From Sphingomonas sp. LC-1 (GTDB lineage Bacteria; Pseudomonadota; Alphaproteobacteria; Sphingomonadales; Sphingomonadaceae), in the NCBI RefSeq assembly GCF_025371035.1, contig NZ_JANZXB010000005.1, positions 124,001-188,000 on the forward strand: 64,000 bases of DNA. The letters run 5' to 3'. Positions 21,919-40,271 of the stretch are shown here, piece after piece; the stretch's first letter is position 1, and every line of letters starts with the position of its first letter. The position numbers and the translations under genes are program-made. The notes under the pieces are model-generated. The model worked only from the letters and a program-made list of their open reading frames with translations. It was not told the origin of the DNA and did not search any database.

Positions 21919-24900
21919 TTAGAAGGTACCGCGCAGACCGATCAGGAACTGGCGACCCGGCTTATACTGGGTGAAGGTCGCATTTTCGAACTGGAAGTAG
22001 GAGCGCAACGTCGCATTGGTGAAGTTGGCGACGTTGATGGTCAGCTGCGGCGCGCCCGGAATGCCGAAGATCTTGTCCAGGTCGAACGCCGACGAGAAGT
22101 CATAGGTGGTATAGTCGGTCCCGAACAGCGCGGCGGCGGGAATGCCGTTCTGGGCCGCGCCGCTGTTCTGCGATCCCTGACGCGAGGTGGTCGCGACGCG
22201 CAGCATCACGCCATTTTTCTCGTAATAGCCTGTGATGTTGTAAGTGAAGGGCGCCACACCGAAAGCGATGGCCGGTCCGTCGCTCCGCTGGTCGACGATC
22301 GTGGCGTTGGCGTTGAAGCCGAAGCCGGTGATACCGATGGCGCGGGTCAGGAAGTCGAGCGGCTGAACCCACTGGAATTCCAAGCCGTTGATGGTCAGCT
22401 TGTTGGGCACGTTGACCTGCGACGTCACCTGTACCTGCGCCTGGCTGGGCCCGCCACGTGCGTCGATCGCGATCTGCTGCGTCGGGTTCAACGTGTCATA
22501 GGTAATGCCGTACTGGCCCAGGTTGGAGAAGGGCACGGTATTGATCGCGGTGGTGGTGAAACCCTCAATCGACTTGCGGAAGGCGTTGAAACTGATGACG
22601 CCTTCGCGTCCGGTATAATATTCGAAGCCGAGGTCGAGATTGGTCGACAGATAGGGCGCCAGCGCCGGGTTGCCGATAGACGCCTGATCCGCCGATGGCG
22701 CGCCGAAATTGACGCCGGGCAGCTGGGCCGAGGGATCGGGCCGGGTCATGGTGCGCGACCCGGCAACGCGTACGACCGCATGCTCGCCGACGTCATAGGC
22801 AAACGTCGCGGCGGGCAGCCATTCGGAATAGACGTTCCGCGTTTCGGCGATATTGACGATATTCGGATAGCGGCTGCCATCGGGCAGCGATCCGCCACCG
22901 GCCGGCGAATTGCGTGGATCGGGAAGCGAGACGCGACCCGAAATCATCTGGATCGTGTTGACGTAGCGCACGCCGACATTGAAGCGCAGCGTATTGCCGC
23001 CCAACTCCTGTGCGCCGTTGATCGTCGCGAAGGCCGACTTGACGACTTCGCGAATGAAGCCGCCGCTGGCACCGGTATTGGCACCGCCGCTCTCCGGCGC
23101 ATTGTCGTGGAAATAGTTGTAGTTGCTCGCTGCGGCGAAGGCGGGCCAGTTGACGGTGACGAAGCCGGCAGGCCCCGGCATCAGATAGGTGGGCGCTAGG
23201 TTGTTGGGGATCAGCGATCCGCCATAGCTGACCGGACCGCTCATACCCGCGGTCGATCCCGTGCCATATCCCGGATAGGTGGGATAGCCTGCCGGCGCAG
23301 CGCCGGGGGCGTTCAGGCCGGTGCAGGGCGGCTGCGAATTGGGAGAGGGGACCGCGACATTCGGATTGTTGCCGCAGACCGCATTCTGCCAATATTGGCT
23401 GTTGTCGAAGCCGCGAATGCGGCGCGACGTATCGTCATAAGCGCCACCGACCTTCAGATTGAGCGCGGTGTCGCCCCAGGTCAGGTCGCCGCGGAAACCT
23501 TTGTTGATATTCAGGCGGCGCTCGTCCTGCAAATTGACGCGGCTGCCTGCATTCCAGCCGAAATTCTTAGGGTCGTTCAGGTCCAGCGCGCTGGTGATCG
23601 TCGGAATACCGCCATTGTTGGAATAGGTCACGGTGTTGCCGACGCCCAGCGGCGTGGTCATCCCGACGGTCGGGCTTTCCCGGTGGAAGGTCGAGCGCGC
23701 ATAATTGCCCTGGAAGTTCAGCTTCAGCTTGTCGTTGATCTCCCATTCCCCGCCCGGATTGACGCTCCAGAGGCGGGTCGTTTCGGTATAGGGGCGAAAT
23801 TCGTTGAAGAACTGGACATTGGCGAAGGTGCCGCCGGTGACCGTACAGCCAGCGCTGCAATCCGCCTTGTCGAACGTCAGATTGGTCGGGATGATCGCGC
23901 CGTTGCGAACGATCCACGCCATATTCTCTCGCGTCAGTTCGTTCTGCTTATAGCCGTACAGCCCGTCGATATAGAAACGCAGCGTATCCGACGGCCGATA
24001 TTCGGCGCTGACGATCGCGTTCACGCGGTCACGCGGGCCGCGAATGCTGGTAACGCGACCCAGGCGCGGCAACAGTCCGTTGTCGATCTGCTGGATCGTG
24101 GCGCCTGGATTATTGGCTAGCAGAAAGGCCCTGTCGATCGTCGTGCCCGCCACCAGTCCGGCGCCGGCCCCCTGCGGGACCACCGCCGGGATCGTCCAGT
24201 TGCCGCCGCCCGTGCTGTTGCAGCCGCTTGTCGCACCGCACTGGGCGGCCGTCAAAGCGGGATTGGTGTAGCCGATCGTCTCGAACCCGCGCGTATCGGT
24301 AAAGATGCGCTGCGCCGATACGCCTCCCAGAATGCCGAAGCTGTCGTTCCGCCAGCTTCCGATCAACGAACCGCGCGCGCCGATGCGGTCTTCGGGCGTC
24401 TGCTTCGTGCCCTGGATATTATAGGCGACGAACGATGTCTGCCGATCGAAGGGCCGGGCTGAGCGGAGGTCGATGTTGCCGGCGGCGCCCCCTTCGAGCA
24501 GGTCGGCCGTATAGCTCTTGTTCACGGTCAACTTAGTGAACAGGTCGGTCGGAAAGAAGCTGAGATCGACCGAACGGTCAGTGCCTTGCGCATCGGTCGC
24601 GCCTGAGGACGCCACCGCGATCGGAGCGCCGTTCAGCGTGACGTTGGTGAAGTTCGATCCTAGTCCCCGGATGGCGACGTTCGTACCTTCGCCCGTCACA
24701 TCGCGCGTGATCGTCACGCCCGGAATACGGTTGAAGGACTCGGCGATGTTGGTGTCCGGGAACTTGCCGATATCCTCGGCGAAGATCGAGTCGGTGAAAC
24801 CGGTCGAGGCGCGCTTGGCGTTGGTCGACTTGGCAAGGCTGGAGCGATAGCCGGTGACGACGATGTCTTCGCTCGTCGTGCCCTGAGTCTGATCGGTCTG

Positions 24901-25065
24901 GGGCGGGGGGCTGACCGCCGGGCCATTGTCCTGTCCATCGGCCGGGGCCTGTTCCTGCGGCGGGGGAACCGCCTGCGCCAGAGCCGTGGACGCGGTCATC
25001 GCGCCGACCGCCGTGGCGCACAGCAAGGTGAAGCGGCGCAGGCGGACGTTGGGCGTCGTTCTCAT
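21919..25065 (-). CDS. Large TonB-dependent receptor of the hexuronate/xylan locus
   Basis: A 1048-residue outer-membrane receptor for TonB-driven uptake. It has a signal peptide with an ALAQA cleavage site, a Pro/Gln-rich linker, a DIVVTGYRSSL TonB-box region, then the plug (FPDTNIAESF, IPGVTITRDV, NVAIRGLGSNFTNVTLNG), and a beta-barrel ending in the terminal phenylalanine of GLRGTF. Length and plug type match the TonB-Xanth-Caul class that takes up oligosaccharides. It lies downstream of a GH67 alpha-glucuronidase gene and near mannonate dehydratase and a hexuronate transporter, so aldouronic oligosaccharides from glucuronoxylan are the likely ligand. ATG 25065 has AGAGAGGA upstream. Its promoter carries the operator described at 25317. 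Confidence 0.93.
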   Translation of the reverse strand: MRTTPNVRLRRFTLLCATAVGAMTASTALAQAVPPPQEQAPADGQDNGPAVSPPPQTDQTQGTTSEDIVVTGYRSSLAKSTNAKRASTGFTDSIFAEDIGKFPDTNIAESFNRIPGVTITRDVTGEGTNVAIRGLGSNFTNVTLNGAPIAVASSGATDAQGTDRSVDLSFFPTDLFTKLTVNKSYTADLLEGGAAGNIDLRSARPFDRQTSFVAYNIQGTKQTPEDRIGARGSLIGSWRNDSFGILGGVSAQRIFTDTRGFETIGYTNPALTAAQCGATSGCNSTGGGNWTIPAVVPQGAGAGLVAGTTIDRAFLLANNPGATIQQIDNGLLPRLGRVTSIRGPRDRVNAIVSAEYRPSDTLRFYIDGLYGYKQNELTRENMAWIVRNGAIIPTNLTFDKADCSAGCTVTGGTFANVQFFNEFRPYTETTRLWSVNPGGEWEINDKLKLNFQGNYARSTFHRESPTVGMTTPLGVGNTVTYSNNGGIPTITSALDLNDPKNFGWNAGSRVNLQDERRLNINKGFRGDLTWGDTALNLKVGGAYDDTSRRIRGFDNSQYWQNAVCGNNPNVAVPSPNSQPPCTGLNAPGAAPAGYPTYPGYGTGSTAGMSGPVSYGGSLIPNNLAPTYLMPGPAGFVTVNWPAFAAASNYNYFHDNAPESGGANTGASGGFIREVVKSAFATINGAQELGGNTLRFNVGVRYVNTIQMISGRVSLPDPRNSPAGGGSLPDGSRYPNIVNIAETRNVYSEWLPAATFAYDVGEHAVVRVAGSRTMTRPDPSAQLPGVNFGAPSADQASIGNPALAPYLSTNLDLGFEYYTGREGVISFNAFRKSIEGFTTTAINTVPFSNLGQYGITYDTLNPTQQIAIDARGGPSQAQVQVTSQVNVPNKLTINGLEFQWVQPLDFLTRAIGITGFGFNANATIVDQRSDGPAIAFGVAPFTYNITGYYEKNGVMLRVATTSRQGSQNSGAAQNGIPAAALFGTDYTTYDFSSAFDLDKIFGIPGAPQLTINVANFTNATLRSYFQFENATFTQYKPGRQFLIGLRGTF

Positions 25066-25579
25066 GGCAAATCCTCTCTGTCGACCCGCTGCCGTTCGTC
25101 GCGGCATGCGAGGATATTGGAATGATGATGAAGATGGTCGGGGGGTGCGGCGCTCAGGCGGTCGAGCAGCAACGGCGAAGGGTGGCGCGATGCTCGCAGG
25201 ATGATCGGGCGGCAGCCATAAGCCCCGAACAGGACGTCACGCCTGATCGCCTTCGACGCGCTATTGCCTTGGAAACCATTCCGCTTCCTCTCAAGACCGT
25301 CTGATGCGGTTTTACTGATAGCGCTATCGATACGCCTATTGGTTAGTAAGTCAAATGCAAATTGGTTAGGCCGGAATGGATGAACGGAAATTCATGGCTT
25401 ATGCCTCGTGTCCCACCACGATTCTCGAAAGGTGGCAACACTTTCCTCAATGATGCCCGCGGCAGTGATGAAATCGAATGCAGATCGGCCCGACCAGATT
25501 GGCCAGGCAGCGCCTTTGGCCGCAGTCGAGATCGATCCAGCTATCCATCGCGCCGTTTAATCCGCATCGGCACAACAGC
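25066..25579. other. 514-nt intergenic region, receptor to alpha-glucuronidase
   Basis: Besides the promoter/operator at 25317-25354 it has two copies of ATTGGTTAG (25338-25346 and 25361-25369), 23 nt apart. The receptor leader would be about 255 nt long. No convincing gene is seen in either strand. The part next to the glucuronidase stop (25380-25579) has nothing I recognise. Confidence 0.5.
25317..25354 (-). promoter_or_regulatory. Promoter with LacI-type operator upstream of TonB receptor
   Basis: Read on the minus strand, TTGACT (25354-25349) and TATCGA (25332-25327) are separated by 16 nt and look like -35 and -10 boxes. The 12-bp perfect palindrome GATAGCGCTATC (25317-25328) overlaps the -10 box on its downstream side. 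This is the shape of LacI-family operators known for sugar genes in Caulobacter and sphingomonads, and would repress by blocking polymerase. Confidence 0.6.
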
Positions 25580-27673
25580 TTAATGGGCTTGTCCAGGCGC
25601 ATGCGGATACTGCTGTGCTTTGTACCATGCCAGATCATGCTCGGGTGGGCGCACACCCGCTGGCAGCGGGAGGTGATTGACCGACATCCAATAGGCCAGG
25701 CTGGCATCGCGCCACCATTGGGCTTCACGATTCTGGATGGCGAGATAGGTCGCCGTTTTCTGCCACCGCTCGGCATCGATCTTGTCCCGCAGGCCGCCCC
25801 ATTGCTTCTGCATGTTCGCAACATAGGCAACGCCGCGATCATAATGGGCCACCAAATCCTCCCACAGAGACCGCCCGTCCGCCACGCGGTACGTCCACGG
25901 CAGATGATGGAACCATAGCAGCATCGACTCTGGCGTCGTTCCCGGCTTGGCAAAGGTCCGGGCAACCGGACCGGCATATTGTCCGACGGCGTTGCTGCCC
26001 GACTCGGTACGGTCGAACCCGATCCCGGCGGCATCGGCACGGTGATAATAAACGGGGTTCCATTCCGGACGAGCCAGTTCGGACACCCAGGGCCCGGGAC
26101 CATAATGATGGCCGGTCGCCATCAGATGCGCCAGCCCCAGGGCGCCGGTATAGTCCACCACCGCCTCACGCGATCCCATCATCATCGTGGTTACCGTATC
26201 GATCACCTGGCGGTCCGGGCCGAAGGTCTGTGCGGCCCAGGCGCGCGCGATCGCCTCCGCAGAAAGGTCAGGATCCCAGGCAAGGCGGCCAAAGGCGTAC
26301 CAGTTCGCCTGATTGAAGGTCGATCCACTCCAATCGCGATCGCGCCCGATATTGGCGACGCCTGCCATACCGGTAAGCTTATGGTGTTCCGCCTTGCCGT
26401 CGACCACATCGGCCACCGTCTCTCCAGGACGGTGGCCCGTCCTGGCGTCCAGGACCTCGGTGAACAACGGCCCGAGATACGCCAGATGCGTCGCGAAGCC
26501 GAGATATTCCTTGGTGATCTGGAATTCGATCATCAGCGGCGTGCGGGGCATCGCGCCGAACAGCGGGTGGAATGGCTCGCGAGGTTGGAAGTCGATCGCG
26601 CCGTTCTTCACCTGTACTAGGACATTGTCGGCGAATTTGCCATCAAGCGGTTTGAACTCGGAATAGGCTTGCTTGGCACGATCCTCCGGATCGGTTTCCG
26701 CATAGACGAAGGCCCGCCACATCACGATGCCGCCATGGTCGCGCACTGCAGCGGCCAGCATGTTGGCACCATCCGCATGGCTGGCGCCATAATCGCGAGG
26801 ACCCGGCTGCCCCTCGCTATTGGCCTTGACCAGAAAGCCGCCAAAGTCGGGTATGGCACGGTAGATTTCGTCCGCCTTGGCCCGCCACCATGCCGCAACT
26901 GCGGGATCACGCGGGTCGGCTGTCTTTAGTCCGCCAAGTTCGATCGGGGCCGAAAACCGGACCGACAGATAGACGCGAATGCCCCAGGGGCGGAATATAT
27001 CGGCCAACGCCGCCGCCTTCGCGATATAGGGTGCGGTCAGGCTGTCGGCCTTGGCATTGACGTTGTTCAGGACCGTGCCGTTGATCCCGATCGACGCATT
27101 GGCGCGCGCATAGTCGGTGTAACGAGGATCGCGAAAATCGGGGAGCGTCCACCAATCCCAGAGCGACTGCCCCGCATAGCCGCGCTCGACCGAACCATCC
27201 AGATTGTCCCAATGGTTGAGGACGCGCAGTTTGACCTTGGGGCTGGATCGCAGGTCGATCGACTCAGCGGGACCGCCAGTGTTCAGGTGACGGATCAGCG
27301 CGAACGCGCCGTAAAGTGCGCCCCGATCGCTATTCCCCGCAACGAGTATCACCTTCCGCCCATCGAGTGTCACGCTGCGGATGAGATAGCCTTCATCTCC
27401 CAGCCCCTTAAATTTCAGGCCTAGCATTTTGAGGGAGGGGCTTGAGGCGGTAGCAAGGACGACCGGCGGCGCGTCGGGTGAGAGTGCATGGCGAAGTTCA
27501 CGCTCCGCGAGCATCAGCGTGGCGGAGTCGCCTAACCGGTTTGCCTTCATCTGTCGGACCGATGAAGCGGCTGGCTTCAGCCAAAGCGCGTAACCATCCT
27601 CCGCTGATGCGGGCAATGGCACCGTCATCAATGGGATAGACAGAGCCCCCAGCCATATGCGCACTCTGTTCAT
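25580..27673 (-). CDS. GH67 alpha-glucuronidase
   Basis: Removes 4-O-methyl-glucuronic acid from the non-reducing end of xylo-oligosaccharides. The 697-residue protein has a signal peptide (cleavage after ASA) and the GH67 fold: VLNHWDNLDGSVERGYAG, KANSEGQPGP, VQVKNGAIDFQPREP and QITKEYLG. By spacing, Glu287 corresponds to the catalytic acid and Asp361 and Glu389 to the base pair described for Cellvibrio GlcA67A (292, 365, 393). The C-terminal WFHHLPW and TYLAIQNREAQWWRDA segments are also typical. ATG 27673 has GGGAGAG upstream. It is divergent from the mannonate dehydratase gene, and the released glucuronate would feed that pathway. The predicted export places it in the periplasm, consistent with uptake of intact oligosaccharide by the TonB receptor. 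Confidence 0.95.
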   Translation of the reverse strand: MNRVRIWLGALSIPLMTVPLPASAEDGYALWLKPAASSVRQMKANRLGDSATLMLAERELRHALSPDAPPVVLATASSPSLKMLGLKFKGLGDEGYLIRSVTLDGRKVILVAGNSDRGALYGAFALIRHLNTGGPAESIDLRSSPKVKLRVLNHWDNLDGSVERGYAGQSLWDWWTLPDFRDPRYTDYARANASIGINGTVLNNVNAKADSLTAPYIAKAAALADIFRPWGIRVYLSVRFSAPIELGGLKTADPRDPAVAAWWRAKADEIYRAIPDFGGFLVKANSEGQPGPRDYGASHADGANMLAAAVRDHGGIVMWRAFVYAETDPEDRAKQAYSEFKPLDGKFADNVLVQVKNGAIDFQPREPFHPLFGAMPRTPLMIEFQITKEYLGFATHLAYLGPLFTEVLDARTGHRPGETVADVVDGKAEHHKLTGMAGVANIGRDRDWSGSTFNQANWYAFGRLAWDPDLSAEAIARAWAAQTFGPDRQVIDTVTTMMMGSREAVVDYTGALGLAHLMATGHHYGPGPWVSELARPEWNPVYYHRADAAGIGFDRTESGSNAVGQYAGPVARTFAKPGTTPESMLLWFHHLPWTYRVADGRSLWEDLVAHYDRGVAYVANMQKQWGGLRDKIDAERWQKTATYLAIQNREAQWWRDASLAYWMSVNHLPLPAGVRPPEHDLAWYKAQQYPHAPGQAH

Positions 27674-27695
27674 GCCATACTCTCCCGATGCGCCG

Positions 27696-27752
27696 CCAAT
27701 TGACAAGCTGGCGCTTGGCCATCAGGGTACCGCTATCAGACCAATTGGCAAG
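27696..27752. promoter_or_regulatory. Repeated operator-like elements between GH67 and manD genes
   Basis: Two direct repeats, CCAATTGACAAG (27696-27707) and CCAATTGGCAAG (27741-27752), are 45 nt apart. Between them GGTACCGCTATC (27726-27737) is the reverse complement of GATAGCGGTACC, which resembles the palindrome GATAGCGCTATC upstream of the TonB receptor. The CCAATTGG core also resembles GntR-family hexuronate operators. This suggests one or two regulators shared by the locus. Confidence 0.45.
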
Positions 27753-27786
27753 TCGATTAAACGGCTTTGGACAGAGGAGGGGTGCC

Positions 27787-27927
27787 ATGGCCCGCAGACC
27801 GGATACTCCTCACGCGGCAGTTGCGCTGGTAGTGCCCGAACCTGCGCGCGTATCGGCTCCTCATTCCGATTGGACCCGTAATTCGGTGGATCGCGCCCCG
27901 CGATCGATTGCTTTCGACTTCGTCTAA
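27787..27927 (+). CDS. Candidate 46-residue protein or leader peptide upstream of manD
   Basis: A small frame preceded by a near-ideal ribosome site, GAGGAGGGG, seven bases before the ATG. The peptide is [12 protein letters not shown] and 34 further residues, ending in AFDFV; it has no membrane segment and no recognised family. The stop codon TAA is followed by AGG, the likely ribosome site for the mannonate dehydratase start 10 nt downstream, so translation of the two could be coupled. Codon third positions are less GC-biased than in neighbouring genes, so it may instead be a leader or the remnant of a regulator. The strength of the ribosome site is the main argument for it. Confidence 0.4.
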
Positions 27928-27937
27928 AGGACCCCGC

Positions 27938-29149
27938 ATGCCCAAGATCATCGCCGCCCGCCTGATCGTCACGTCGCCGGGCCGCAATTTCGTCACACTG
28001 AAGATCGAATGCGACGACGGTACGTTCGGGCTGGGTGATGCGACCCTCAACGGGCGCGAACTCGCGGTGGCGAGCTATCTGGAGGACCATGTCCTACCCT
28101 GCCTGATCGGGCGCGACGCGCATCGGATCGAGGATATCTGGCAGTATCTCTACAAAGGTGCCTATTGGCGTCGCGGCCCCGTGACCATGACGGCGATCGC
28201 GGCCGTGGACATGGCGCTGTGGGACATCAAGGGCAAGGTTGCGGGCCTCCCCGTCTATCAGTTGCTGGGGGGGGCCGCGCGTGACGGATGCCTGGTCTAT
28301 TGTCATGCAAACGGCACCACGATCGAGGACACGATCGCCACGGCGATCCGACACCGCGACGAAGGGTATCGCGCAATCCGTCTGCAATGCGGCGTGCCTG
28401 GCCTGGCGTCGACCTATGGTGTCGCCAAGTCGGGGCAGCGCTACGAGCCGGCCGACGCCGATCTGCCGAGCGAGAGTGTCTGGTCGACGGAAAAATATCT
28501 GCGGATCGTCCCGGAGCTCTTCGCCGCCGCGCGTGAGGCCTTGGGGTGGGACGTCCATCTGCTGCACGACGTGCACCACCGCCTCACGCCGATCGAGGCG
28601 GGGCGGCTCGGCAAAGACCTGGAACCCTATCGCCCCTTCTGGATCGAGGATGCCACACCGGCCGAAAATCAGGACTCTTTCCGCCTGATCCGCCAGCATA
28701 CGACGACGCCGATCGCCGTTGGGGAGGTGTTCAATTCGATCTGGGACGCCAAGCATCTGATCGAAAATCAGTTGATCGATTATATTCGCGCCACGGTCGT
28801 CCATGCGGGGGGCATTACCCATTTGCGGCGGATCGCGGGGCTTGCCGACCTGTATCAGGTGCGTACCGGCTGTCACGGCGCAACCGATCTGTCGCCCGTG
28901 ACCATGGCGGCCGCGCTTCACTTCGGCCTGTCGGTGCCGAATTTCGGTATTCAGGAGCATATGCCCCACACGGACGAGACCGATGCGGTCTTCCCGCATC
29001 ATTATCGGTTCGACGATGGCATGATGCATCCCGGCGATGCGCCCGGCCTGGGTGTCGCAATCGACGAAGAACTGGCGGCGACCTATCCCTATAAACGGGC
29101 CTATCTGCCGGTGAACCGGCTTGAGGATGGTACGCTGTGGAGTTGGTAA
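27938..29149 (+). CDS. manD: D-mannonate dehydratase, enolase superfamily
   Basis: Dehydrates D-mannonate to 2-keto-3-deoxy-D-gluconate in hexuronate catabolism. The 403-residue protein belongs to the enolase superfamily: capping-domain start [18 protein letters not shown], then the barrel with [20 protein letters not shown] and VGEVFNS carrying the Asp-Glu-Glu metal ligands, and the DGTLWSW C-terminal end typical of ManD enzymes. It closely matches the pattern of the structurally studied Novosphingobium aromaticivorans ManD. ATG 27938 fits the family N-terminus. It is followed after 1 nt by the hexuronate transporter gene, forming an operon. Some ManD homologues have very low activity, but the genomic context here supports the true catabolic role. 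Confidence 0.93.
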
Positions 29150-30522: not shown

Positions 30523-32700
30523 TCAGGCCTTTAGCGAGGCGGCATCGAGATCGACTTCCAATTCGCGCGCCCAGAAGCGTAAGTCGCGGCATTGCGTAAC
30601 GAAAGTCTTCGCGTCCTTGGACTTGGCGAGCGGCACGAAGCCGTCATCGCGGTCCTTGACCCCGGCCGCATCGAACAGATTGTTCGCATCCGCTGTGTGA
30701 CCGATGAACTTGCAATGCGCAAAGGCGTCGGCCACGAAGTCCTTCGCCGTGGCGTCTTTCGCCAGCATCGCGGCCCCTTGCGCCGATGGCAGGACTGCGA
30801 CCGCATCATAGAGGACCGAGGGGCCGCCATCGATCTTCTGCTTGGCGGCGACCTTGGTCCCGTCGTCCAGGGTCACGCCACCGATCTTGGGCGCGACGAC
30901 CTCCCACAAGCCGCCCTCGGCGTCGAGCGCCTTGGTCAGCCCCTTGAACAGGTCCGCGCTGGAGCCATCGGTCAGCAAAAGGCCCATCTTGCGACCCGCA
31001 AAGCTTTTCGGCCCATTGGCCAGGATGCTGAGCTTCGGCGACGCCGACAGGTCCAGCGTCGGCTTGGCCGCCTTGGCCGGCTCGGGCAGTTCCAGCCCCA
31101 GCCCGTCCGCCACCGTCGCCGCCAGACCCTCGTCGATCAGGCGGAGGTGCGACACCGCGCGTGCCCGGATGTCGACCCGCTCGACCTTCGACAGCTCGAA
31201 TACCAGGGCGTCGCCGATATGCTTCTGCTCGATCGGCAACTGGCTGACGAAGAATTGCCGCGCCTGGCTATAATGGTCGGAGAATGTCTCCGCCCGGATG
31301 CGCTGCTTGGTTCCCCGAACCTCGGCCGGGTAACTGCGGTAACCGGCCGTCGGGTTCTCGCGTGGGCCACCTTCGGGGCCCCAGCTGTTCGGCTCGTAAT
31401 TGGCGCGGCCCTTGGGATTGCGCATCGCCATATGGCCGTCCTGCTGGAAATTCATGACCGGGCAGCGCGGGGCATTGACCGGGATATGCGTGAAATTCGG
31501 CCCGCCCAGCCGCTTCAGCTGCGTGTCCAGATAGGAAAAGTTACGCCCATGCAGGAGCGGATCGTCCGAGAAGTCGATGCCGGGCACCACATTCTGCGTG
31601 CAGAAAGCCACCTGCTCCGTCGCCGCGAAGAAATTGTCGACATTGCGGTTGAGGGTCAGTGTGCCGATGATGCGGACGGGCACATCCTCTTCAGGGATCA
31701 GCTTGGTCGAATCGAGATGATCGAAGGGGAGGCGATCCGCCGTCTCCTGATCGAACAATTGCACGCCCAAATCCCATTGCGGGAAATCGCCGGCCTCGAT
31801 CGCCTGCCACAGGTCGCGACGGTGGAAGTCAGGATCGGCCCCGTTGATCTTGACCGCCTCGTTCCACAGAACCGACTGCAAGCCCTGTCGCGGCTTCCAA
31901 TGGAACTTCACGAACGTCGACTTCCCCTCGGCGTTGACCAGTCGGAAGCTGTGGACGCCGAAGCCTTCCATCGTGCGGAACGAGCGGGGGATGGTCCGGT
32001 CCGACATCTGCCACATGACCATATGCCACGCTTCGGGGGTCAGGCTGGCGAAGTCCCAGTAATTGTCATGGGCCGACTGGGCTTGCGGGAACGCGCGGTC
32101 CGGCTCCTGCTTCACCGCGTGGACCAGGTCGGGGAACTTGATCGGGTCCTGGATGAAGAAGACCGGGATATTGTTGCCGACAATGTCCCAATTGCCCTCC
32201 TTGGTGTAGAACTTGACCGCGAAGCCGCGCACGTCCCGGGCGAGGTCCATCGATCCCTTGTTGCCCGCCACGGTCGAGAAGCGGACGAACACCTCCGTCT
32301 GCTGCCCGACTTGGCTGAGAACCTCGGCGCGGGTATAGTCGGCCAGGCTGTCGGTCAGTTCGAAGACCCCATGCGCGCCATAGCCGCGCGCGTGGACGAC
32401 GCGCTCCGGAATTCGCTCATGGTCGAAGTGGAAGATTTTCTCACGCAGGATGAAATCTTCGAGCAACGTGGGGCCGCGTTCCCCTGCGCGCAGGCTGTTC
32501 TGATCGTCGGCGATCGGTACGCCCTGCTGCGTGGTCAGCGTACGGGCGGGGTCGTCGGTCGTCTGGTGCGTCTCGCCGCCATGACCCTGGGGCTCGGCAT
32601 AATGGGTCGGCACTTCGGCACCTGCGGGAAGGGGCGGTGCCTTGGCCGGGCTTTCGCCCTTCATCTTGCCCGCATCGCCCTTGCTGGTCTTGGTCGCCAT
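30523..32700 (-). CDS. katE: Large-subunit catalase (HPII type)
   Basis: Breaks down hydrogen peroxide. The 725-residue length and the two-part architecture identify the large-subunit clade: a heme catalase core followed by a C-terminal flavodoxin/DJ-1-like domain (about residues 570-725). Core motifs are the distal histidine in [12 protein letters not shown], the asparagine in VGNNIPVFF, and the proximal tyrosine in [10 protein letters not shown]. The first 50 residues are Lys/Gly/Pro-rich, as in the family. ATG 32700 has GAGAG upstream; the open frame continues 29 codons further but those are not catalase-like. It is divergent from the glycosyltransferase operon, with an AT-rich region between them holding an FNR-type box. 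Confidence 0.95.
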
Positions 32701-32773: not shown

Positions 32774-32816
32774 TTGATTTTTATCAAGTCGGTTTCACCT
32801 GTATTAGTCTAATAAT
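32774..32816 (+). promoter_or_regulatory. Exact FNR/FixK-type box with -10 element, class II layout
   Basis: TTGAT-TTTT-ATCAA (32774-32787) is a perfect match to the FNR/FixK consensus TTGAT-N4-ATCAA. Downstream, AATAAT (32811-32816) is a good -10 element. The box centre then falls about 41-42 nt upstream of the expected transcription start near 32822, the class II activator position, pointing at the glycosyltransferase operon. A separate perfect inverted repeat ATTAG-T-CTAAT is at 32803-32813. The region is markedly AT-rich. An effect on the divergent catalase gene is also possible. Confidence 0.6.
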
Positions 32817-32848: not shown

Positions 32849-33925
32849 GTGGTTGGTCGGCCTGCGGATCGGCCGCTGGTGCTCGGGAGAACGGACCTGC
32901 TCGATACCCTTCCCGTCATTCTGTGCATCCCGGCCCGGAATGAAGAGGCGTCGCTGCCGACCCTGCTCAGCGCCTTGAGTTCACTCGTAGTCGAGGGAGG
33001 GCGGCTGACCGTCTGCATCTATCTGGACGATTGTCAGGATCGCAGTGCCACGCTGCTGGATCGAGCGGCTTCGGACCGTCCGTTCCGGCTGTGCGTGACG
33101 GCGGGGCGAAGGAGGGGCGGCCCCAATGCCGGTGTCGCCCGACATGCCGCCATGACGATGGCGCTGGACACTCTACAGGGCCGCGAAGCATTGCTGTTCG
33201 TGACGGACGCCGACAGCATCCCGCAGCCGGATTGGATCATGGCGGGCCAGAAAGCGCTGGCGGAAGCGGATGTCGTCGCGGGGCGCATCACACGAAGCGG
33301 CGCGCTCGCCGATCCCGAGCAAGGTCGGCTCGAGCGTTATTATGATCGCCTGCATCGCTATCGCCGTCTCCTCGACCCCGTCCCCTGGGAAGCGCGCGAC
33401 ACGCATCACTTCGGCGGCGGCGCCAACATGGCAATGCGCGCCTCGGCCTATCGCGCCGTCGGCGGTTTCAAACCTCTGGCCACCGCCGAGGACGCGACCT
33501 TCCTCGACGATGCGGCGCGAGCGGGGCTTCGAGTCCGGCGCGATCGCGCCATGGTCGTCGAGACCTCCTCCCGCCGCGAGGGTCGAGCGGCGAACGGTCT
33601 CGCTGGAGCCTTGCGTGCCCTTGATGCCGGAGAGGATCGGCGCGTCGCTCACCCGGCGGCGGCGGCATGGCAATGGAGCGCACAGGCAGCGGCCAGGCAG
33701 AGTTTCACGATTATCGACCGAGCCGACATCCGAGCGGCGCTCGGCGATCGACTGGGTCTGACGCCGGATCATGTCCTGGGCGTCGCACGCGATTGTCCCA
33801 ATGGCGAAGCCTTTGCGATGCGGATTGTTCCCGCATCCCCCATCTACACCGACCTGGTCGGCCTCGCCGAAGCGGAAAATCTGTTGTCCGCGATGGAAAG
33901 GCAATCGTGCGAGATCGCGGCATGA
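32849..33925 (+). CDS. Family 2 glycosyltransferase, first gene of GT2-ACAD-PIG-L-NodS operon
   Basis: A soluble 358-residue GT-A fold transferase. The N-terminal nucleotide-binding strand is CIPARNEEASL (26-36), the metal-binding D120-A-D122 sits in VTDADSIPQPDW, and the acceptor-side acidic pair is E214-D215 in TAEDATFLDD, after HHFGGGANMAMR. No membrane helices are seen, unlike NodC or chitin synthases. Start is uncertain: GTG 32849 gives the full frame but lacks a clear ribosome site, and GTG 32879 is an alternative ten codons in. The stop overlaps the next gene by 4 nt. From the partners I infer that it adds an N-acylated amino sugar to an unknown acceptor. Confidence 0.88.
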   Translation: MVGRPADRPLVLGRTDLLDTLPVILCIPARNEEASLPTLLSALSSLVVEGGRLTVCIYLDDCQDRSATLLDRAASDRPFRLCVTAGRRRGGPNAGVARHAAMTMALDTLQGREALLFVTDADSIPQPDWIMAGQKALAEADVVAGRITRSGALADPEQGRLERYYDRLHRYRRLLDPVPWEARDTHHFGGGANMAMRASAYRAVGGFKPLATAEDATFLDDAARAGLRVRRDRAMVVETSSRREGRAANGLAGALRALDAGEDRRVAHPAAAAWQWSAQAAARQSFTIIDRADIRAALGDRLGLTPDHVLGVARDCPNGEAFAMRIVPASPIYTDLVGLAEAENLLSAMERQSCEIAA

Positions 33926-34911
33926 TCGCGATGGCGCAACTCGTGCGGGATACGATCGAGGCGTCCGGTTGGGCCCATAATCCCGCTCGCGACCCGCAAA
34001 CGGCCGAGGAATATGTCGCCCTGTTGAGGACGCTCTACGAGATCGGGCGCCGCGACCTTCCGCTCGCGCGATTGGTCGAGGGGCATGTCGATGCCGTACA
34101 GATCGTCGGCCGCCATGGCACAATGCAACAAGTCGAGCGACTGCGGGAATTGGTCGCACAGGGTGCAACGCTCGGCGTTTGGAATGCCGGGCTGCCCGGC
34201 GAGCCGCTTCGGCTGGACGGCGGGCGGCTGACGGGGGGCAAGAGCTATGCGTCGGGAGCAGGCGTGTTGAGCCATGCCTTGGTCACGGCGGACGTTCTCG
34301 ACGGCGTGCAACTGATATTGCTCGACCTCGCACGAACGGAACCCGAGATCGATCGCGGCTGGTGGCAAGTGACGGGGATGCAGCGGTCCGAAACGCATCG
34401 GGTCCGCTGGGACGGGGTGCTGACTGACGAAGATGATCTAATCGGCATCCCGAACGTCTATGCCCAAGAGCCTTATTTCAGCGGTGGCGCGTTGCGCTTC
34501 GTCGCGGTTCATGCTGGTGGCATTGCCGGGATTTCCGACCGGGTGCGCGACCATCTCGTCCGGACCGATCGAGCGTCCGATCCCTTTCAGGCGGCACGGC
34601 TCGCCGAGTTGTTCGCGCTGGCCGATGGCGCGGGCGCGGTGGTGCGTCGTGCCGCGACACGCTGGTTCGAGGAGCAGGGCGAAGCACGGTTGGCGCGGAT
34701 CGCCGCAGCCCGCCTCGCCGTGACCGACGCCGCCGAGCGGTCGATCGTGATCGCACGAGAGGCCGTGGGTCTCGCCAGCCAGTTCATCACCCACCCCCTG
34801 TCGGCCATGCTTAGCGACTTGGCGGTCTACCTCCGCCAGCCGGTTCCGGACGCGCAACGTCTTCGCGTTGGTCGGGCGGTGGAGGGTGGCTTGCTGGCGC
34901 CGTCGCTATGA
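33922..34911 (+). CDS. Acyl-CoA dehydrogenase-like flavoprotein
   Basis: A 329-residue protein with the middle beta-domain pattern of acyl-CoA dehydrogenases: an LVAQGATLGVWNAG stretch near 75-88, then GGRLTGGKSYASGAG near 98-112, followed by HALVTADV. The C-terminal half is helical with Arg-rich repeats, as in the four-helix bundle. It is some 50 residues shorter than typical enzymes, and I cannot identify the catalytic glutamate with confidence. The closest resemblance is the loosely defined subgroup that includes FAD-dependent oxidases and monooxygenases rather than fatty-acid oxidation enzymes. It is translationally coupled on both sides (ATGA overlaps) inside a glycan-modifying operon. 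It might oxidise the glycoconjugate or introduce unsaturation; this is inference. Confidence 0.75.
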   Translation: MIAMAQLVRDTIEASGWAHNPARDPQTAEEYVALLRTLYEIGRRDLPLARLVEGHVDAVQIVGRHGTMQQVERLRELVAQGATLGVWNAGLPGEPLRLDGGRLTGGKSYASGAGVLSHALVTADVLDGVQLILLDLARTEPEIDRGWWQVTGMQRSETHRVRWDGVLTDEDDLIGIPNVYAQEPYFSGGALRFVAVHAGGIAGISDRVRDHLVRTDRASDPFQAARLAELFALADGAGAVVRRAATRWFEEQGEARLARIAAARLAVTDAAERSIVIAREAVGLASQFITHPLSAMLSDLAVYLRQPVPDAQRLRVGRAVEGGLLAPSL

Positions 34912-35558
34912 GGTTGGCGATCAAGGGCGTTCGCAGAGCCGTGATCGTCGCGCCGCATCCCGATGACGAGATCATCGGCGCGGCGGCATTGATCCGGACG
35001 CTGCGCCGTCAGGGCAGCGACGTGCAGGTCGTCATCGTCAGTGACGGTGCCGCGTCGCATCCGGCGAGCGTGTCCTGGCCCCGCAACCGCCTGATCGCGG
35101 CACGGCGACGGGAAAGCAGGAATGCGTTGGCGAGGCTGGACGTGATGCGGGGAAACGTCACGTTCCTCGACCTGCCTGACGGTGGACTTCCAGCCAATTT
35201 CGACCGATGCCGAGTGCAGCTTCGACGGGTGCTATCGAGACGCCGGGGCATCGATCTGATCGTCGGTCCCTCACCACATGACGCGCATCCCGATCACCAG
35301 GCGGTGGCAGAAGCGCTGAGCCGGATTCCGGTCACGGCATCATGTTGGACATATCAGGTCTGGCCTCCGCTACGACATAGGCAGGGCCGTTGCCGAACCA
35401 TCGTGATGCCGGGCGGAGCGGCGGCAAAGCGCTCGCTGATCCGAGCCCATCGTACCCAGTTGGGCGCGATCAAAGATGACCCACAGGGGTTCGCCATCGC
35501 CCCCCATGAACTGACCGTCTTCGCGCATCCGGTCGAACGCTTTGTGGTAGCTGGATGA
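34908..35558 (+). CDS. PIG-L family (LmbE) N-acetyl sugar deacetylase
   Basis: A 216-residue zinc-dependent deacetylase of the family that removes the N-acetyl group of GlcNAc in GPI, mycothiol, bacillithiol and antibiotic biosynthesis. The diagnostic zinc motif A-x-H-P-D-D-E is at 15-21 (His17 and Asp20 as ligands, Asp19 as base). The second motif is H127-P-D-H130, supplying the third ligand. Length fits the family. It overlaps the genes before and after by ATGA. In many genomes this domain is fused to a NodS-like methyltransferase; here the two are separate but adjacent, which supports a shared substrate: a free amine made by this enzyme and methylated by the next. Confidence 0.93.
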   Translation: MRLAIKGVRRAVIVAPHPDDEIIGAAALIRTLRRQGSDVQVVIVSDGAASHPASVSWPRNRLIAARRRESRNALARLDVMRGNVTFLDLPDGGLPANFDRCRVQLRRVLSRRRGIDLIVGPSPHDAHPDHQAVAEALSRIPVTASCWTYQVWPPLRHRQGRCRTIVMPGGAAAKRSLIRAHRTQLGAIKDDPQGFAIAPHELTVFAHPVERFVVAG

Positions 35559-36133
35559 TGAAAGCGGCCGACTTGAGCAGCTTTGCCGCGAAGTTCGCGG
35601 CTGACGGCGATCCGTGGTCGACCTTCAGCAATCGCGACGAAGCCGTGAAGCGCGCGGCGATCCTCCATGCGCTCGGTCCTGCCCCAATGGGGCGCGTCCT
35701 CGAATTGGCGAGCGGCAATGGATCGAACAGCCGTGCCATTGCGCCCAGGGTGCTTCGCCTCGACGCGACGGAGGGCACTGCCGCCGGGACGCGATTGACC
35801 GCCAGCGCGATCGCGGCGTGGCCACGGGCGAGGGCGATCGAACTGGCTCTGCCCGCGCGCCTTCCCGCGCGGCCCTATGACGCGATCGTTGTGGCCGAGT
35901 TGCTTTATTATCTGTCCCCCTTGGACATGGCGCGCGTCGCGGATTGTGTCGGCAAGGTATTGCGGTCGGGCGGGCGACTGGTGCTCGCGCACCACCAGGT
36001 CGATTATTATGATTTCGCCCAGCACGCGCGCGGCATCCACGAACGCTTTCTCGAGGAGACCGGATGCGACTGGCGCATCAAGGTCGTTCGACGCTGCGCG
36101 CGCTGGATCGTTTCGGTAGCCCGAAAGAAATGA
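35555..36133 (+). CDS. NodS-like SAM-dependent methyltransferase
   Basis: A 192-residue class I methyltransferase. The SAM-binding loop is VLELASGNGSNS (48-59), the acidic residue after the second strand is in LDATEG, and the motif IV region is VVAELLYYLS, which matches the NodS family of N-methyltransferases that act on deacetylated chitooligosaccharides. It is the last gene of the operon. By analogy it methylates the amine exposed by the PIG-L enzyme; a carboxyl or hydroxyl target is also possible. It ends 221 nt before the convergent coiled-coil gene, and I see no strong terminator there. Confidence 0.88.
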   Translation: MMKAADLSSFAAKFAADGDPWSTFSNRDEAVKRAAILHALGPAPMGRVLELASGNGSNSRAIAPRVLRLDATEGTAAGTRLTASAIAAWPRARAIELALPARLPARPYDAIVVAELLYYLSPLDMARVADCVGKVLRSGGRLVLAHHQVDYYDFAQHARGIHERFLEETGCDWRIKVVRRCARWIVSVARKK

Positions 36134-36904: not shown

Positions 36905-36930
36905 TGAACCCGCTTTGGGTCTCGTACGTT
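36905..36930 (+). promoter_or_regulatory. Candidate EcfG-type (general stress) promoter for ku
   Basis: TGAAC (36905-36909), 17 nt, then CGTT (36927-36930) resembles the alphaproteobacterial EcfG consensus GGAAC-N16/17-CGTT with one mismatch. The predicted start would be about 20 nt before the ku ATG. Stress-sigma control of end joining is known in some rhizobia. Short motifs occur by chance, so this is tentative. Confidence 0.35.
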
Positions 36931-36955
36931 GATAATCGAGCAAGGAGAACGCTTT

Positions 36956-37837
36956 ATGGCCGCTCGCGCCTATTGGCAGGGACAGATCAAGCTCGCCTTG
37001 GTGAGCATTCCGGTCGAAATCTATTCCGCCACCCGCTCGGGCGCCACCATCTCGTTCAAGCAGATCCACGAACCTAGCGGCAAGCCGATCCATTATGAGA
37101 AGGTCGTGACCGGCATTGGTCCCGTCGACAAGGATGAGATCATGAAGGGCTATGAGGTGAAGAAGGGCGAATTTGTCCTGCTCGAACAGGATGAGATCGA
37201 CGCCGTAAAGCTCGAATCCAAACGGACCCTGGAACTGACCCAGTTCGTCGACGCGGACGCCATCGACGTGCTGTATTACGAAAAACCGTTCTTCGTCGTC
37301 CCGGCGGACGACCTGGCGAACGAAGCCTTTATCGTCCTTCGCGAGGCGTTGAAGCGCACCAAGAAGGTCGGGCTGGGCCAGTTGGCGCTGCGGGGGCGCG
37401 AATATGTCGTCAGCCTCAAACCCTCCGGGCGCGGCATGGTGCTCGAAACTCTCCGCTACGCCGATGAAATGGAAAAGGCGCAAGGCTATTTTCGCGAAAT
37501 CCCGGACGACGACCCAGATGGCGAGTTGCTGGACCTGGCGGAGGCGCTGATCGACCGGAAGAGCGCGGCGTTCCATCCGCAGGAATTTCACGATCGCTAC
37601 GTCGATGCGCTGAAGGATCTGATCGAGCGGAAACGCAAGTCGCGTGGCAAGAAGGTCATCGAGGATGATGGCGCGACCAATGCCCCAAAGGCGTCGAACG
37701 TCGTCGATCTGATGGCGGCGCTCCGTCAGTCGATGGACGGGAAGGGTGGCGGCTCGACCGCGAACAAGGCGCCGGCCAAGAAATCCGCCCCCCGCAAACG
37801 CGCGCCCGCAAAGTCGTCGGTGAAGAAGCGTGCCTGA
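36956..37837 (+). CDS. ku: Ku protein, non-homologous end joining
   Basis: Homodimeric DNA-end-binding protein that recruits LigD to double-strand breaks. The 293-residue protein has the bacterial Ku core (AYWQGQIKLALVSIPVEIY at the start, FKQIHEPSGKPI, YEVKKGEFVLLE, LTQFVDADAID, YVVSLKPSGRG) and a Lys/Ala/Pro-rich C-terminal tail (about 230-293), typical of bacterial Ku, which contributes to DNA binding and LigD stimulation. ATG 36956 has AAGGAG upstream; the open frame nine codons further is not conserved. The stop overlaps the ligD start by 8 nt, so the two are made together. Confidence 0.96.
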   Translation: MAARAYWQGQIKLALVSIPVEIYSATRSGATISFKQIHEPSGKPIHYEKVVTGIGPVDKDEIMKGYEVKKGEFVLLEQDEIDAVKLESKRTLELTQFVDADAIDVLYYEKPFFVVPADDLANEAFIVLREALKRTKKVGLGQLALRGREYVVSLKPSGRGMVLETLRYADEMEKAQGYFREIPDDDPDGELLDLAEALIDRKSAAFHPQEFHDRYVDALKDLIERKRKSRGKKVIEDDGATNAPKASNVVDLMAALRQSMDGKGGGSTANKAPAKKSAPRKRAPAKSSVKKRA

Positions 37838-40271
37838 TCGCCGCAAAGCCTCGATCGCAGCGGCGGAGAGCGATAGGCTGGCGATCTACAACGCCAAGCG
37901 GGATTTTTCGCGAACGCCGGAACCGGCCGGGGCGCTGGCGCACGGTCACGCCAACAGCTTCATCGTGCAGAAGCATGATGCCACCCGGCTGCATTGGGAT
38001 TTCCGTCTGGAAGTGGACGGTGTGCTGAAAAGCTGGGCGGTCACACGTGGCCCAAGCCTGGACCCCAATGAAAAGCGTCTGGCGGTGCGGACCGAGGATC
38101 ACCCGCTTTCCTATTCCGATTTCGAGGGGGTCATTCCTAAGGGAGAATATGGCGGCGGAACGGTGATGCTTTGGGACCGGGGCACATGGTCGCCTGTCGC
38201 GGGCAAGTCGGCCGCCGATCTCGCTAAAGGGCATCTCCATTTCGTATTGGACGGCGAACGCATGCGCGGCGAGTGGATGCTGATCCGCTTGAAACCGCGG
38301 GGCCGGGAAAAGCGCGAGAATTGGCTACTGCGCAAGGTCGAGGATGACTTCGCGGGCGCGACCGATGCGCTCGTCGAAGAGGGGCTGACCAGCGTCGCTT
38401 CCGGCCGGACCATGGCCGAGATTTCAGACGGGAAGGCGGCGAAGGCTAAGGCCCCGCCGAAACGGATCAAACGGAACGTCAAGAGAGCCGTGGCAATGCC
38501 GGGTTTTCGCGAGCCACAACTCTGCACCTTGCGCGATACGGTTCCCACCGGGGACGCCTGGCTCCATGAGATCAAGTTCGACGGCTACAGGGTCATGATC
38601 GCCACAGGGGGCGGGAAAGCGACGATCTTCACGCGGACCGGGCTGGACTGGACCGACAAATTCCCGGCGATCGCAAAGGCTGCCGCGCGCCTCCCCGCGG
38701 CGGCCCTGATCGACGGTGAAGTCGTGGCCTTCAAAGACGGCCGCCCCGATTTTTCGGCTCTGAAGACCGCCATCAGCGAAGGTGGCGAGATGGTTTTCAT
38801 GGCCTTCGACCTGATCGAACAGGATGGCGACGACATCGGCGAGTTATCGACACTTGATCGCAAGGAGCGGCTTCGTGCGCTGCTGAACGACGCGCCGAAC
38901 GCCATCCGTTTCGCGGAACACGTCATCGGGAAGGGGGAAGCCCTGCTCGAGCAAATGTGTCGAGACGGATTGGAAGGGGTCGTGTCCAAGCGTGCGGACG
39001 CGCCCTATCGCTCGGGCCGCGCCAGGGCCTGGATCAAGGTGAAATGCGTTCAGCGTGGCCGTTTTCGGATCGTCGGGTGGTTGCCGTCCGACAAGCGTCG
39101 CGGGTTTCGATCGCTCTTGCTGGGGCAGGAAGGGCCGGGGGGTCTTGCCTATGCAGGGAAGGTCGGAACGGGCTTCGATACGACGGGCATGGATGCGATC
39201 GTCGGGAAATTGAAACGACTGGAGCGCACGACGGCAACCGTCGACGCCCCCCGCGCGATGGTTCGCGGTGCGCATTGGGTGACGCCCAGCCTGGCGGCCG
39301 ACATAGCCTATGCGGAAGTGACACCTGACGGACTGCTGCGCCATGCCAGTTTTCTGGGGCTAGGCAGTGAACCGGGCCGTGAAGATGCACCAGAACCCGC
39401 CGACGGCGAAACCAGTGTGAAGGTGACGCATCCCGACCGCATCATCTTTCCAGACGGTGATATCACCAAAGGGCAACTCGCGGAATATTATGCCAGGATG
39501 GCCGGGTTGATGCTGCCCTTCATCGGCGATCGTCCGATCAGCTTGGTTCGCTGTCCGCAGGGCAGGGCGCGGAAATGCTTTTTCCAAAAGCACGACGCCG
39601 GCAGCTTCGGGGAGCATGTCCACCGCGTGCCGATCCGCGACAAGGACGGCAAGAGCGACGATTATCTTTACGTGAAAGACGCCGACGGCCTGGTCGCCTG
39701 CGTACAAATGGGGGCCATTGAGTTCCATGGATGGGGCTCGCGGGTCGCCACCTTGGAGAAATCCGACCGAATGGTGTTCGATCTGGACCCGGACGAGGGC
39801 CTGGCCTTCACCGACACCAAGAAGGCGGCCGAGCACCTAAAGGAGCAACTGGCGGAGGTCGGCCTCACCAGCTTCCCGATGTTATCGGGGGGCAAGGGCG
39901 TGCATGTGGTCGTACCGCTTCAGCCCCTTGCCGAATGGGCCGAGGTCAAGAGCTTCGCCGAACGGTTTGCCCGCGCTCTGGCCGCTCTGGAGCCCGATCG
40001 CTTCGTCGCGACCATGTCCAAAGCCAGTCGCAAGGGCCGCATCTTCATCGACTGGCTTCGCAATCAACGCGGCAGCACCGCGGTGATGCCCTATTCTGCC
40101 AGGGCGAGAAATGGCGCACCGGTGGCAGTGCCGGTCTCATGGACCGAATTGCGCGATATCGAGACCGCGGCGGCCTGGACGATCCATGACGCTGCCGCCC
40201 TGATCGAGCGTGCTTCCGGAAGGGCGCTGTCTGGCTGGGGCTTGGCCAGCCAGACGCTGCCGGAACTGTGA
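37830..40271 (+). CDS. ligD: Multifunctional DNA ligase D
   Basis: The 813-residue end-joining enzyme has three domains in the order phosphoesterase, ligase, polymerase. The phosphoesterase domain (about 20-190) contains FIVQKHDATRLHWDFRLE and the GEYGGG loop. The ATP-dependent ligase domain (about 225-520) has the adenylated Lys249 in EIKFDGYR and motif IV DGLEGVVSKR. The primase-like polymerase domain (about 535-813) has the metal-binding D651-L-D653 in VFDLDPDEG and SGGKGVHVV. All catalytic motifs look intact. GTG 37830 lies inside the end of ku (8-nt overlap). It ends 4 nt from the convergent reductase gene. Confidence 0.96.
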   Translation: MPDRRKASIAAAESDRLAIYNAKRDFSRTPEPAGALAHGHANSFIVQKHDATRLHWDFRLEVDGVLKSWAVTRGPSLDPNEKRLAVRTEDHPLSYSDFEGVIPKGEYGGGTVMLWDRGTWSPVAGKSAADLAKGHLHFVLDGERMRGEWMLIRLKPRGREKRENWLLRKVEDDFAGATDALVEEGLTSVASGRTMAEISDGKAAKAKAPPKRIKRNVKRAVAMPGFREPQLCTLRDTVPTGDAWLHEIKFDGYRVMIATGGGKATIFTRTGLDWTDKFPAIAKAAARLPAAALIDGEVVAFKDGRPDFSALKTAISEGGEMVFMAFDLIEQDGDDIGELSTLDRKERLRALLNDAPNAIRFAEHVIGKGEALLEQMCRDGLEGVVSKRADAPYRSGRARAWIKVKCVQRGRFRIVGWLPSDKRRGFRSLLLGQEGPGGLAYAGKVGTGFDTTGMDAIVGKLKRLERTTATVDAPRAMVRGAHWVTPSLAADIAYAEVTPDGLLRHASFLGLGSEPGREDAPEPADGETSVKVTHPDRIIFPDGDITKGQLAEYYARMAGLMLPFIGDRPISLVRCPQGRARKCFFQKHDAGSFGEHVHRVPIRDKDGKSDDYLYVKDADGLVACVQMGAIEFHGWGSRVATLEKSDRMVFDLDPDEGLAFTDTKKAAEHLKEQLAEVGLTSFPMLSGGKGVHVVVPLQPLAEWAEVKSFAERFARALAALEPDRFVATMSKASRKGRIFIDWLRNQRGSTAVMPYSARARNGAPVAVPVSWTELRDIETAAAWTIHDAAALIERASGRALSGWGLASQTLPEL

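Follow-up and report, generated by a model that had tools for sequence, protein, structure and literature searches.

A conserved four-gene operon of Sphingomonas sp. LC-1 that may direct the synthesis of a soluble N-methylated amino-sugar conjugate related to stress survival

Sphingomonas sp. LC-1 carries an operon of four genes (positions 32849-36133, plus strand, of a 64-kb window, i.e. the whole stretch of DNA analyzed here, from a genome of 4.15 Mb) that encode a glycosyltransferase (GT), a flavoprotein with the acyl-CoA dehydrogenase (ACAD) fold, an N-deacetylase of the PIG-L family, and a methyltransferase (MT) related to NodS. These genes constitute a conserved and widely distributed biosynthetic module, and since the set recurs in distant bacteria, often beside stress-survival genes, a protective small molecule is its probable product. 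From the combination of a GT, a PIG-L protein, a NodS-type methylation and an ACAD-fold oxygenase we infer an N-methylated, oxidized amino-sugar conjugate; we propose, with a probability of roughly 45%, that this self-contained accessory operon produces a soluble conjugate of this kind which acts as a stress metabolite. In the pathway that we envisage, the GT would transfer an N-acetylhexosamine, most likely N-acetylglucosamine (GlcNAc), to a small cytosolic acceptor, the PIG-L enzyme would take off the acetyl group and free the amine, the MT would N-methylate this amine, and the flavoprotein would oxygenate the product, possibly on the same nitrogen, by analogy with KijD3 and the nitrososynthases. 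The core of this idea was already present in a first-pass annotation of the sequence, and it stands.

The first gene (32849-33925) starts with GTG and encodes a soluble GT2 enzyme of 358 aa (PF00535, 3.6e-9); it is followed on the same strand by the genes encoding the flavoprotein, probably a flavin monooxygenase (33922-34911, 329 aa), the PIG-L/LmbE-type N-deacetylase (34908-35558, 216 aa), and the MT, predicted to depend on S-adenosylmethionine (35555-36133, 192 aa). When the coordinates and junctions were re-read, the four open reading frames (ORFs) and the three overlaps of 4 nt (ATGA) given in the first-pass annotation were found as described. A membrane helix was not indicated in any of the four proteins, the highest 19-residue Kyte-Doolittle mean being ≤1.59, which agrees with the lack of such helices previously noted for the GT.

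The module was traced in 73 distinct loci (window counted; loci are designated by L and a number), which were fetched partly through the PIG-L protein, partly through the flavoprotein and partly by choice, one duplicate of the 74 having been removed. The genes encoding the flavoprotein, the PIG-L protein and the MT follow one another in this order at 64 of the 73 loci, 59 of which also have a GT gene. The latter precedes the other three at 30 loci, follows them at 18 and lies on the opposite strand at 11; the three genes stand without it at 5 loci, and 9 show other arrangements. Overlaps of 4 nt (NTGA) occur at 22/32 junctions between the GT and flavoprotein genes, at 49/66 between those of the flavoprotein and PIG-L, and at 46/65 between those of PIG-L and the MT (74 loci, duplicate included). 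The four genes thus co-occur elsewhere, as had been supposed, and the persistence of gene set, order and overlaps in distant bacteria supports the assignment of the four proteins to one pathway. That the genes are unrelated and merely adjacent is contradicted by this synteny, and we regard it as extremely improbable. A fusion of deacetylase and MT, which had been said to exist in other genomes, was indeed found, at one locus (L129).

In a search with the PIG-L protein that kept one genome per species (best 80 of 99 relatives), the nearest named relatives were from Sphingomonas; 13 loci from Sphingomonas and a metagenome-assembled genome (MAG) of the Caulobacteraceae have all four genes in unchanged order, and the set is present in more diverged form in Psychrobacter glacincola and in a MAG of Myxosarcina. 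A flavoprotein profile, itself built from module loci, matched, at 1e-25, 40 out of 397 genomes from the phylum (own genome counted), 125 of 250 genomes of the genus of the window, and 5 of 146 genomes of the phylum that includes the Myxosarcina genome; the flavoprotein of the module is therefore present in roughly a tenth of the genomes sampled from the phylum and in half of those from the genus. The phylum sample is the fairest of those used: 36 of its 39 other neighborhoods (L120-L155) have at least one partner gene, with an MT nearby in 35, PIG-L in 32, and a GT in 29, and at the three weakest flavoprotein matches (L156-158) none of the three partners was found nearby. At one of the 36 loci (L120:4414-5844) a second, diverged flavoprotein homologue (4e-18) lies directly upstream of the module's own, and no PIG-L match was obtained in L120.

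The module is also carried by plasmids. Eight of the 73 plasmid records that matched the flavoprotein were opened, Acinetobacter records being left out; those from another Sphingomonas, Bradyrhizobium, Komagataeibacter, Novosphingobium and Paracoccus have the four genes nearby, those from Deinococcus radiodurans and Roseomonas do not include the GT, and that of Methylobacterium sp. FF17 has only the flavoprotein. A possible unrecognized protectant would be present in a Deinococcus too, and given that the module is small enough to be reassembled on a single plasmid, its product can be searched for directly. In the D. radiodurans record (DRR11 plasmid 3, L083:5546-6730) the flavoprotein is fused behind an N-terminal part of approximately 395 aa, and a helicase gene separates the MT from the rest. 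A fusion of a GT to the flavoprotein was considered for this protein and is not supported, as the N-terminal part has no Pfam match at 0.001 and no match to the GT profile; by eye only, it may resemble a family-1-type glycosidase.

The alignments used to examine the enzymes covered part of the matches of each family (flavoprotein 46/57, PIG-L 39/52, MT 42/55, GT 36/47), and the motifs of the deacetylase and the GT, like a set of residues in the MT, are kept in these members. For the GT, residues D118, D120, E212, D213, S238 and R240 (numbering from the aligned start), comprising DxD and ED motifs, are invariant in the 36 members, and the predicted model (predicted local distance difference test, pLDDT, 90) shows a GT-A fold, in keeping with membership in GT2. 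Its structural neighbors include chondroitin and heparosan synthases and UDP-GlcNAc-bound TarS, along with mannosyl-, rhamnosyl- and fucosyltransferases; since these are mixed in sugar specificity, they do not settle the sugar donor. Among the NCBIfam models the family gave near-misses with TIGR04283 (34/36 members), EpsD (28), HpnB (24) and MftF (19).

The PIG-L protein of the window lies above the cut-off of PF02585 (8.7e-29), and the residues H17, D19, D20, E21, H127, D129 and H130 (PHPDDE and HPDH-type motifs) are invariant in the 39 aligned members. The structures nearest to its profile are TT1542, the diacetylchitobiose deacetylases, 6p2t (an N-acetylglucosaminyl-malate deacetylase), and MshB. 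The BshB1 model is matched by 39/39 members, and the window protein scores below the cut-offs of both bacillithiol equivalogs (BshB1, 38.8 against 182.5; BshB2, 27.9 against 195.25). Just past the module at L133, L135, L137 and L141 there is a further match to the PIG-L profile, giving two deacetylase genes near glgX at these loci; the additional gene of L133 is confirmed by Pfam.

The MT of the window matches PF05401 (NodS) with an E value of 6e-4 and a score of 20.1, below the gathering score of 24, and all 42 aligned MTs match this family at 0.001, with values down to 6e-20 among the relatives; the protein is therefore related to NodS and separate from it. Consistently, its score against the NodS equivalog NF041650 is 25.7, the cut-off being 300. 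With the family profile, 4isc (labelled only 'Methyltransferase' in PDB) appears as a clear relative (4e-66), followed by NodS (3ofj, 3e-30), the nearest named structure; D19, P20, E29, E115 and Y118 are invariant. The only match to a PADLOC defense model among the four proteins is that of the MT to mad2 (5.6e-10), over profile residues 279-404.

A GT together with a PIG-L protein provides the entry to glucosamine conjugates in the synthesis of bacillithiol, mycothiol and glycosylphosphatidylinositol (GPI), and NodS methylates the freed glucosamine nitrogen in Nod factors. The first-pass annotation had drawn a parallel with the Nod factor pathway (NodC, NodB, NodS and NodA), in which GlcNAc is N-deacetylated and then N-methylated. 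The amino-sugar logic of this parallel holds, given the matches to BshB1 (39/39) and NodS (42/42), but closeness to Nod factor synthesis does not: the operon includes neither a chitin synthase nor a NodA-like acyltransferase (the absence of the latter from the core had been noted), the GT is a soluble GT2, the deacetylase belongs to another family, and the NodS equivalog cut-off is not reached. The framing is thus a loose one. Likewise, in the pathways for bacillithiol (BshA-BshB-BshC) and mycothiol (MshA-MshB-MshC-MshD) a GT and then a PIG-L deacetylase yield a glucosamine conjugate that counters oxidative stress; the module shares the GT and PIG-L pair, but it has a GT2 instead of a GT4, as well as a NodS-type MT and an ACAD-fold flavoprotein in place of cysteine ligation, and its scores with the curated models are far below the cut-offs. 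Among the open-access PMC matches listed, no description of this gene set was found, nor a product or pathway assigned to it, in line with the earlier statement.

The flavoprotein had been described as acyl-CoA-dehydrogenase-like. Regarding the fold this was right: the predicted model (pLDDT 95) has the ACAD fold, and although the protein of the window matches no Pfam family at 0.01, up to 9 of 12 members of the flavoprotein alignment A1 match the acyl-CoA dehydrogenase domain. In contrast, the label of dehydrogenase probably misdescribes it. In a comparison of the family profile with known structures, DszC (6e-25), TdsC (1e-21) and MsuC (1e-20) come first, followed by 5z8t, titled flavin-containing monooxygenase, and KijD3 (9e-16), whereas the best dehydrogenase has 2e-15; two nitrososynthases follow (2e-13 and 7e-13). 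Among curated models SfnB is matched by 37/46 members, DszC by 26/46, and the commonest dehydrogenase model by 13/46; the flavoprotein of the window itself matches none of them at 0.001. In addition, when the family was aligned with four ACADs of the same genome, neither of the positions that hold the canonical catalytic Glu in MCAD- and IVD-type enzymes is acidic in any of the 46 members. The first corresponds to Q306 (46/46) or to residue 307 (P, S, A, T or C), this being a sequence alignment from which one reference residue is dropped, so that either 306 or 307 may be the counterpart of the Glu; the second corresponds to G189 (46/46). The family shares with the ACAD-fold monooxygenases (DszC, TdsC, MsuC, SfnB, KijD3 and DnmZ) the fold and the absence of the canonical Glu, and it has a motif of the type K-x-x-x-SGA, as in DszC; it differs in a shorter N-terminus in Sphingomonas and shows only 16-20% identity to its ACAD-fold relatives in structural alignments. 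Two observations weigh on the other side: the structural ranking of the model does not separate dehydrogenases from monooxygenases, which tie, and residue 310 is acidic in 44/46 members. Weighing these points, we consider a flavin monooxygenase probable.

KijD3 and nitrososynthases such as DnmZ act on the nitrogen of amino sugars. The flavoprotein is not clearly nearer to these N-oxygenases, given that DszC gives 6e-25, KijD3 9e-16, a nitrososynthase 2e-13, and dehydrogenases start at 2e-15; oxygenation on nitrogen, suggested by the analogy, is doubtful. If it took place on the deacetylated and methylated glucosamine, an N-hydroxy-N-methylamino sugar or a nitrone would be formed, which could be a radical-scavenging or redox-active protectant built without sulfur; we think this specific product unlikely, and if true, it would add to mycothiol and bacillithiol another redox metabolite based on glucosamine. 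The proximity of the profile to S-oxygenases, the BshB1 matches, the pairing of a GT with PIG-L as in BshA/BshB and MshA/MshB, and the oxidative-stress neighbors described below would also suit a pathway for a low-molecular-weight thiol or sulfur cofactor in which the flavoprotein oxygenates sulfur, as DszC and MsuC do. This is very improbable in our opinion, since the GT is a GT2 and not the GT4-type BshA (which was not sought elsewhere in the genome), no cysteine-adding enzyme is present in the operon, and BshB1 scores 38.8 against a cut-off of 182.5. A true dehydrogenase, for which the structural tie and the acidic residue 310 could be adduced, would rather fit the decoration of an envelope glycan or glycolipid, with the flavoprotein acting on an acyl or carrier-bound substrate and extra GTs building the chain; genes encoding GT4, GT2 or GT28-like proteins do adjoin the module at L088, L124, L125 and L128, as well as at a small number of other loci. 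Nonetheless, the proteins of the window are free of membrane helices, the core includes no flippase, acyltransferase or polymerase, the flavoprotein lacks the canonical Glu, and a GT4 neighbor was found near only 8/72 module loci as compared with 3/64 control loci, which makes this role an unlikely one.

The soluble stress metabolite that we favor is suggested by the genes found around the module, a link that was absent from the first-pass annotation. Homologues of KatE, Ku, LigD, GlgX, OtsA, OtsB or MalQ were observed in the fetched flanks of 26 of 72 distinct module loci (window excluded) and in none of 64 control loci, which have a PIG-L gene and no module (Fisher, 4e-9, computed on 27/73 with the duplicate still in, the related genomes not being independent). 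The control set is taxonomically wider than the module loci. The individual counts among the 72 loci are KatE 14, Ku 5, LigD 5, OtsA 3, GlgX 5 and MalQ 5. For instance, eight distinct loci of the genus have a divergent katE at 56-150 bp from the module, but katE lies approximately 950 bp past the other end of the module at L164, L165 and L172, and is upstream on the same strand at L088 and L152; Ku is encoded 67 bp downstream at L007 (Sphingomonas sp. Leaf21), and at L138 and L144 the gene for LigD is found 172-183 bp upstream. Where informative, the neighborhood suggests a need for the product under oxidative stress, osmotic stress or desiccation, and DNA damage, and the stress neighbors, present at roughly one locus in three, suggest in turn an unrecognized protectant.

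Some of these neighbors bear on the acceptor. On the same strand, and measured between matches, the gap between otsA and the module downstream is about 22 bp at L017, about 14 bp at L130 and, at L142, 223 bp, and that between glgX and the module is 23-32 bp at L133, L135, L137 and L141; where either gene lies directly upstream, trehalose is our best single guess. If trehalose or another sugar of the alpha-glucan pathway were the acceptor in general, the product would be an osmolyte or desiccation protectant carrying an N-methylated amino substituent, and the flavoprotein would oxidize the sugar instead of the nitrogen. It is reported in PMC8084333 that trehalose and alpha-glucan play a part in the osmotic and desiccation tolerance of Pseudomonas aeruginosa; in the main text of PMC8982409 and PMC8084333, which deal with the trehalose and alpha-glucan operons of P. 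syringae and P. aeruginosa, the terms acyl-CoA, PIG-L, LmbE and methyltransferase do not appear. However, OtsA (3/72), GlgX (5/72) and MalQ (5/72) are neighbors at few loci and none is found at the window, and co-transcription may reflect only a common stress control, so we give this proposal little credence.

At the window, the operon shares a promoter region with a divergent gene that encodes a large catalase of the KatE type (30523-32700, minus strand; Pfam Catalase, 1.6e-181, and Catalase_C), an associated gene and not part of the core. Between both genes there is an exact FNR/CRP-type palindrome, TTGATTTTTATCAA (32774-32787, no strand assigned); it is the only exact match to TTGAT-N4-ATCAA in the 64 kb, where 0.02 are expected, and one of nine genome-wide. 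Counting the window, nine distinct loci have katE in divergent orientation no more than 150 bp away; seven of their boxes are exact and two have one mismatch, and they are placed 51-81 bp before the aligned start of the GT; an exact box is present in 0.1% of 320-bp stretches elsewhere in the loci. The genome encodes a regulator with a CxxC-x7-C motif and an ETVSR recognition helix, features that we take to mark it as FNR type. In this Sphingomonas clade the operon and katE would thus be expressed jointly from the divergent region under the control of an FNR-type oxygen sensor. This control would not be general: further exact boxes were found at L004 and L016, L161 is the sole locus outside Sphingomonas with one, 51/73 module loci have no box at ≤2 mismatches, and boxes with two mismatches are at background level (7/73 loci against 9.4%). 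The location of the box in the region common with katE gives a concrete reason for the comparison of cultures grown with and without oxygen that had been advised earlier. Five loci (L085, L088, L125, L128 and L131) have in common a homologous ORF near the module; L085 and L088 also have an annotated Crp/Fnr-type regulator in the vicinity, which at L088 is this very ORF. The presence of such a regulator beside the module at these two loci hints at FNR-type control as well. Two exact FNR boxes 250 bp apart were observed elsewhere in the genome (G000:C1:539374-539637).

The EcfG consensus, which marks the general stress regulon of the Alphaproteobacteria, is GGAAC-N15-19-GTT. Within 350 bp upstream no such promoter was found in the window or in 24 additional loci (one from the Caulobacteraceae, the other 23, including a duplicate, from Sphingomonas or the genus of the window), and it is present upstream at four other loci. 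PMC6599016 prints EcfG promoter motifs resembling this consensus and reports EcfG-dependent glycosyltransferases #3506-#3508 and an exopolysaccharide protein #3509, whose order of names resembles the row of GTs beside the module at L128. We claim no tie between them: a motif as printed there, with one mismatch, occurs in 3/295 genomes of the genus, two of which carry the module, on other contigs than the motif.

Downstream of the operon, the window includes genes encoding the end-joining protein Ku (36929-37837, plus strand; 41% identity by tblastn to the annotated Ku of L086) and DNA ligase D (37830-40271, plus strand; 44% to the annotated LigD of L086). On the left of katE, positions 21922-29146 encode a TonB receptor, a GH67 glycosidase and a mandelate racemase/muconate lactonizing enzyme-type protein (Pfam), which from the role of GH67 we presume to be perhaps a locus for glucuronoxylan use.

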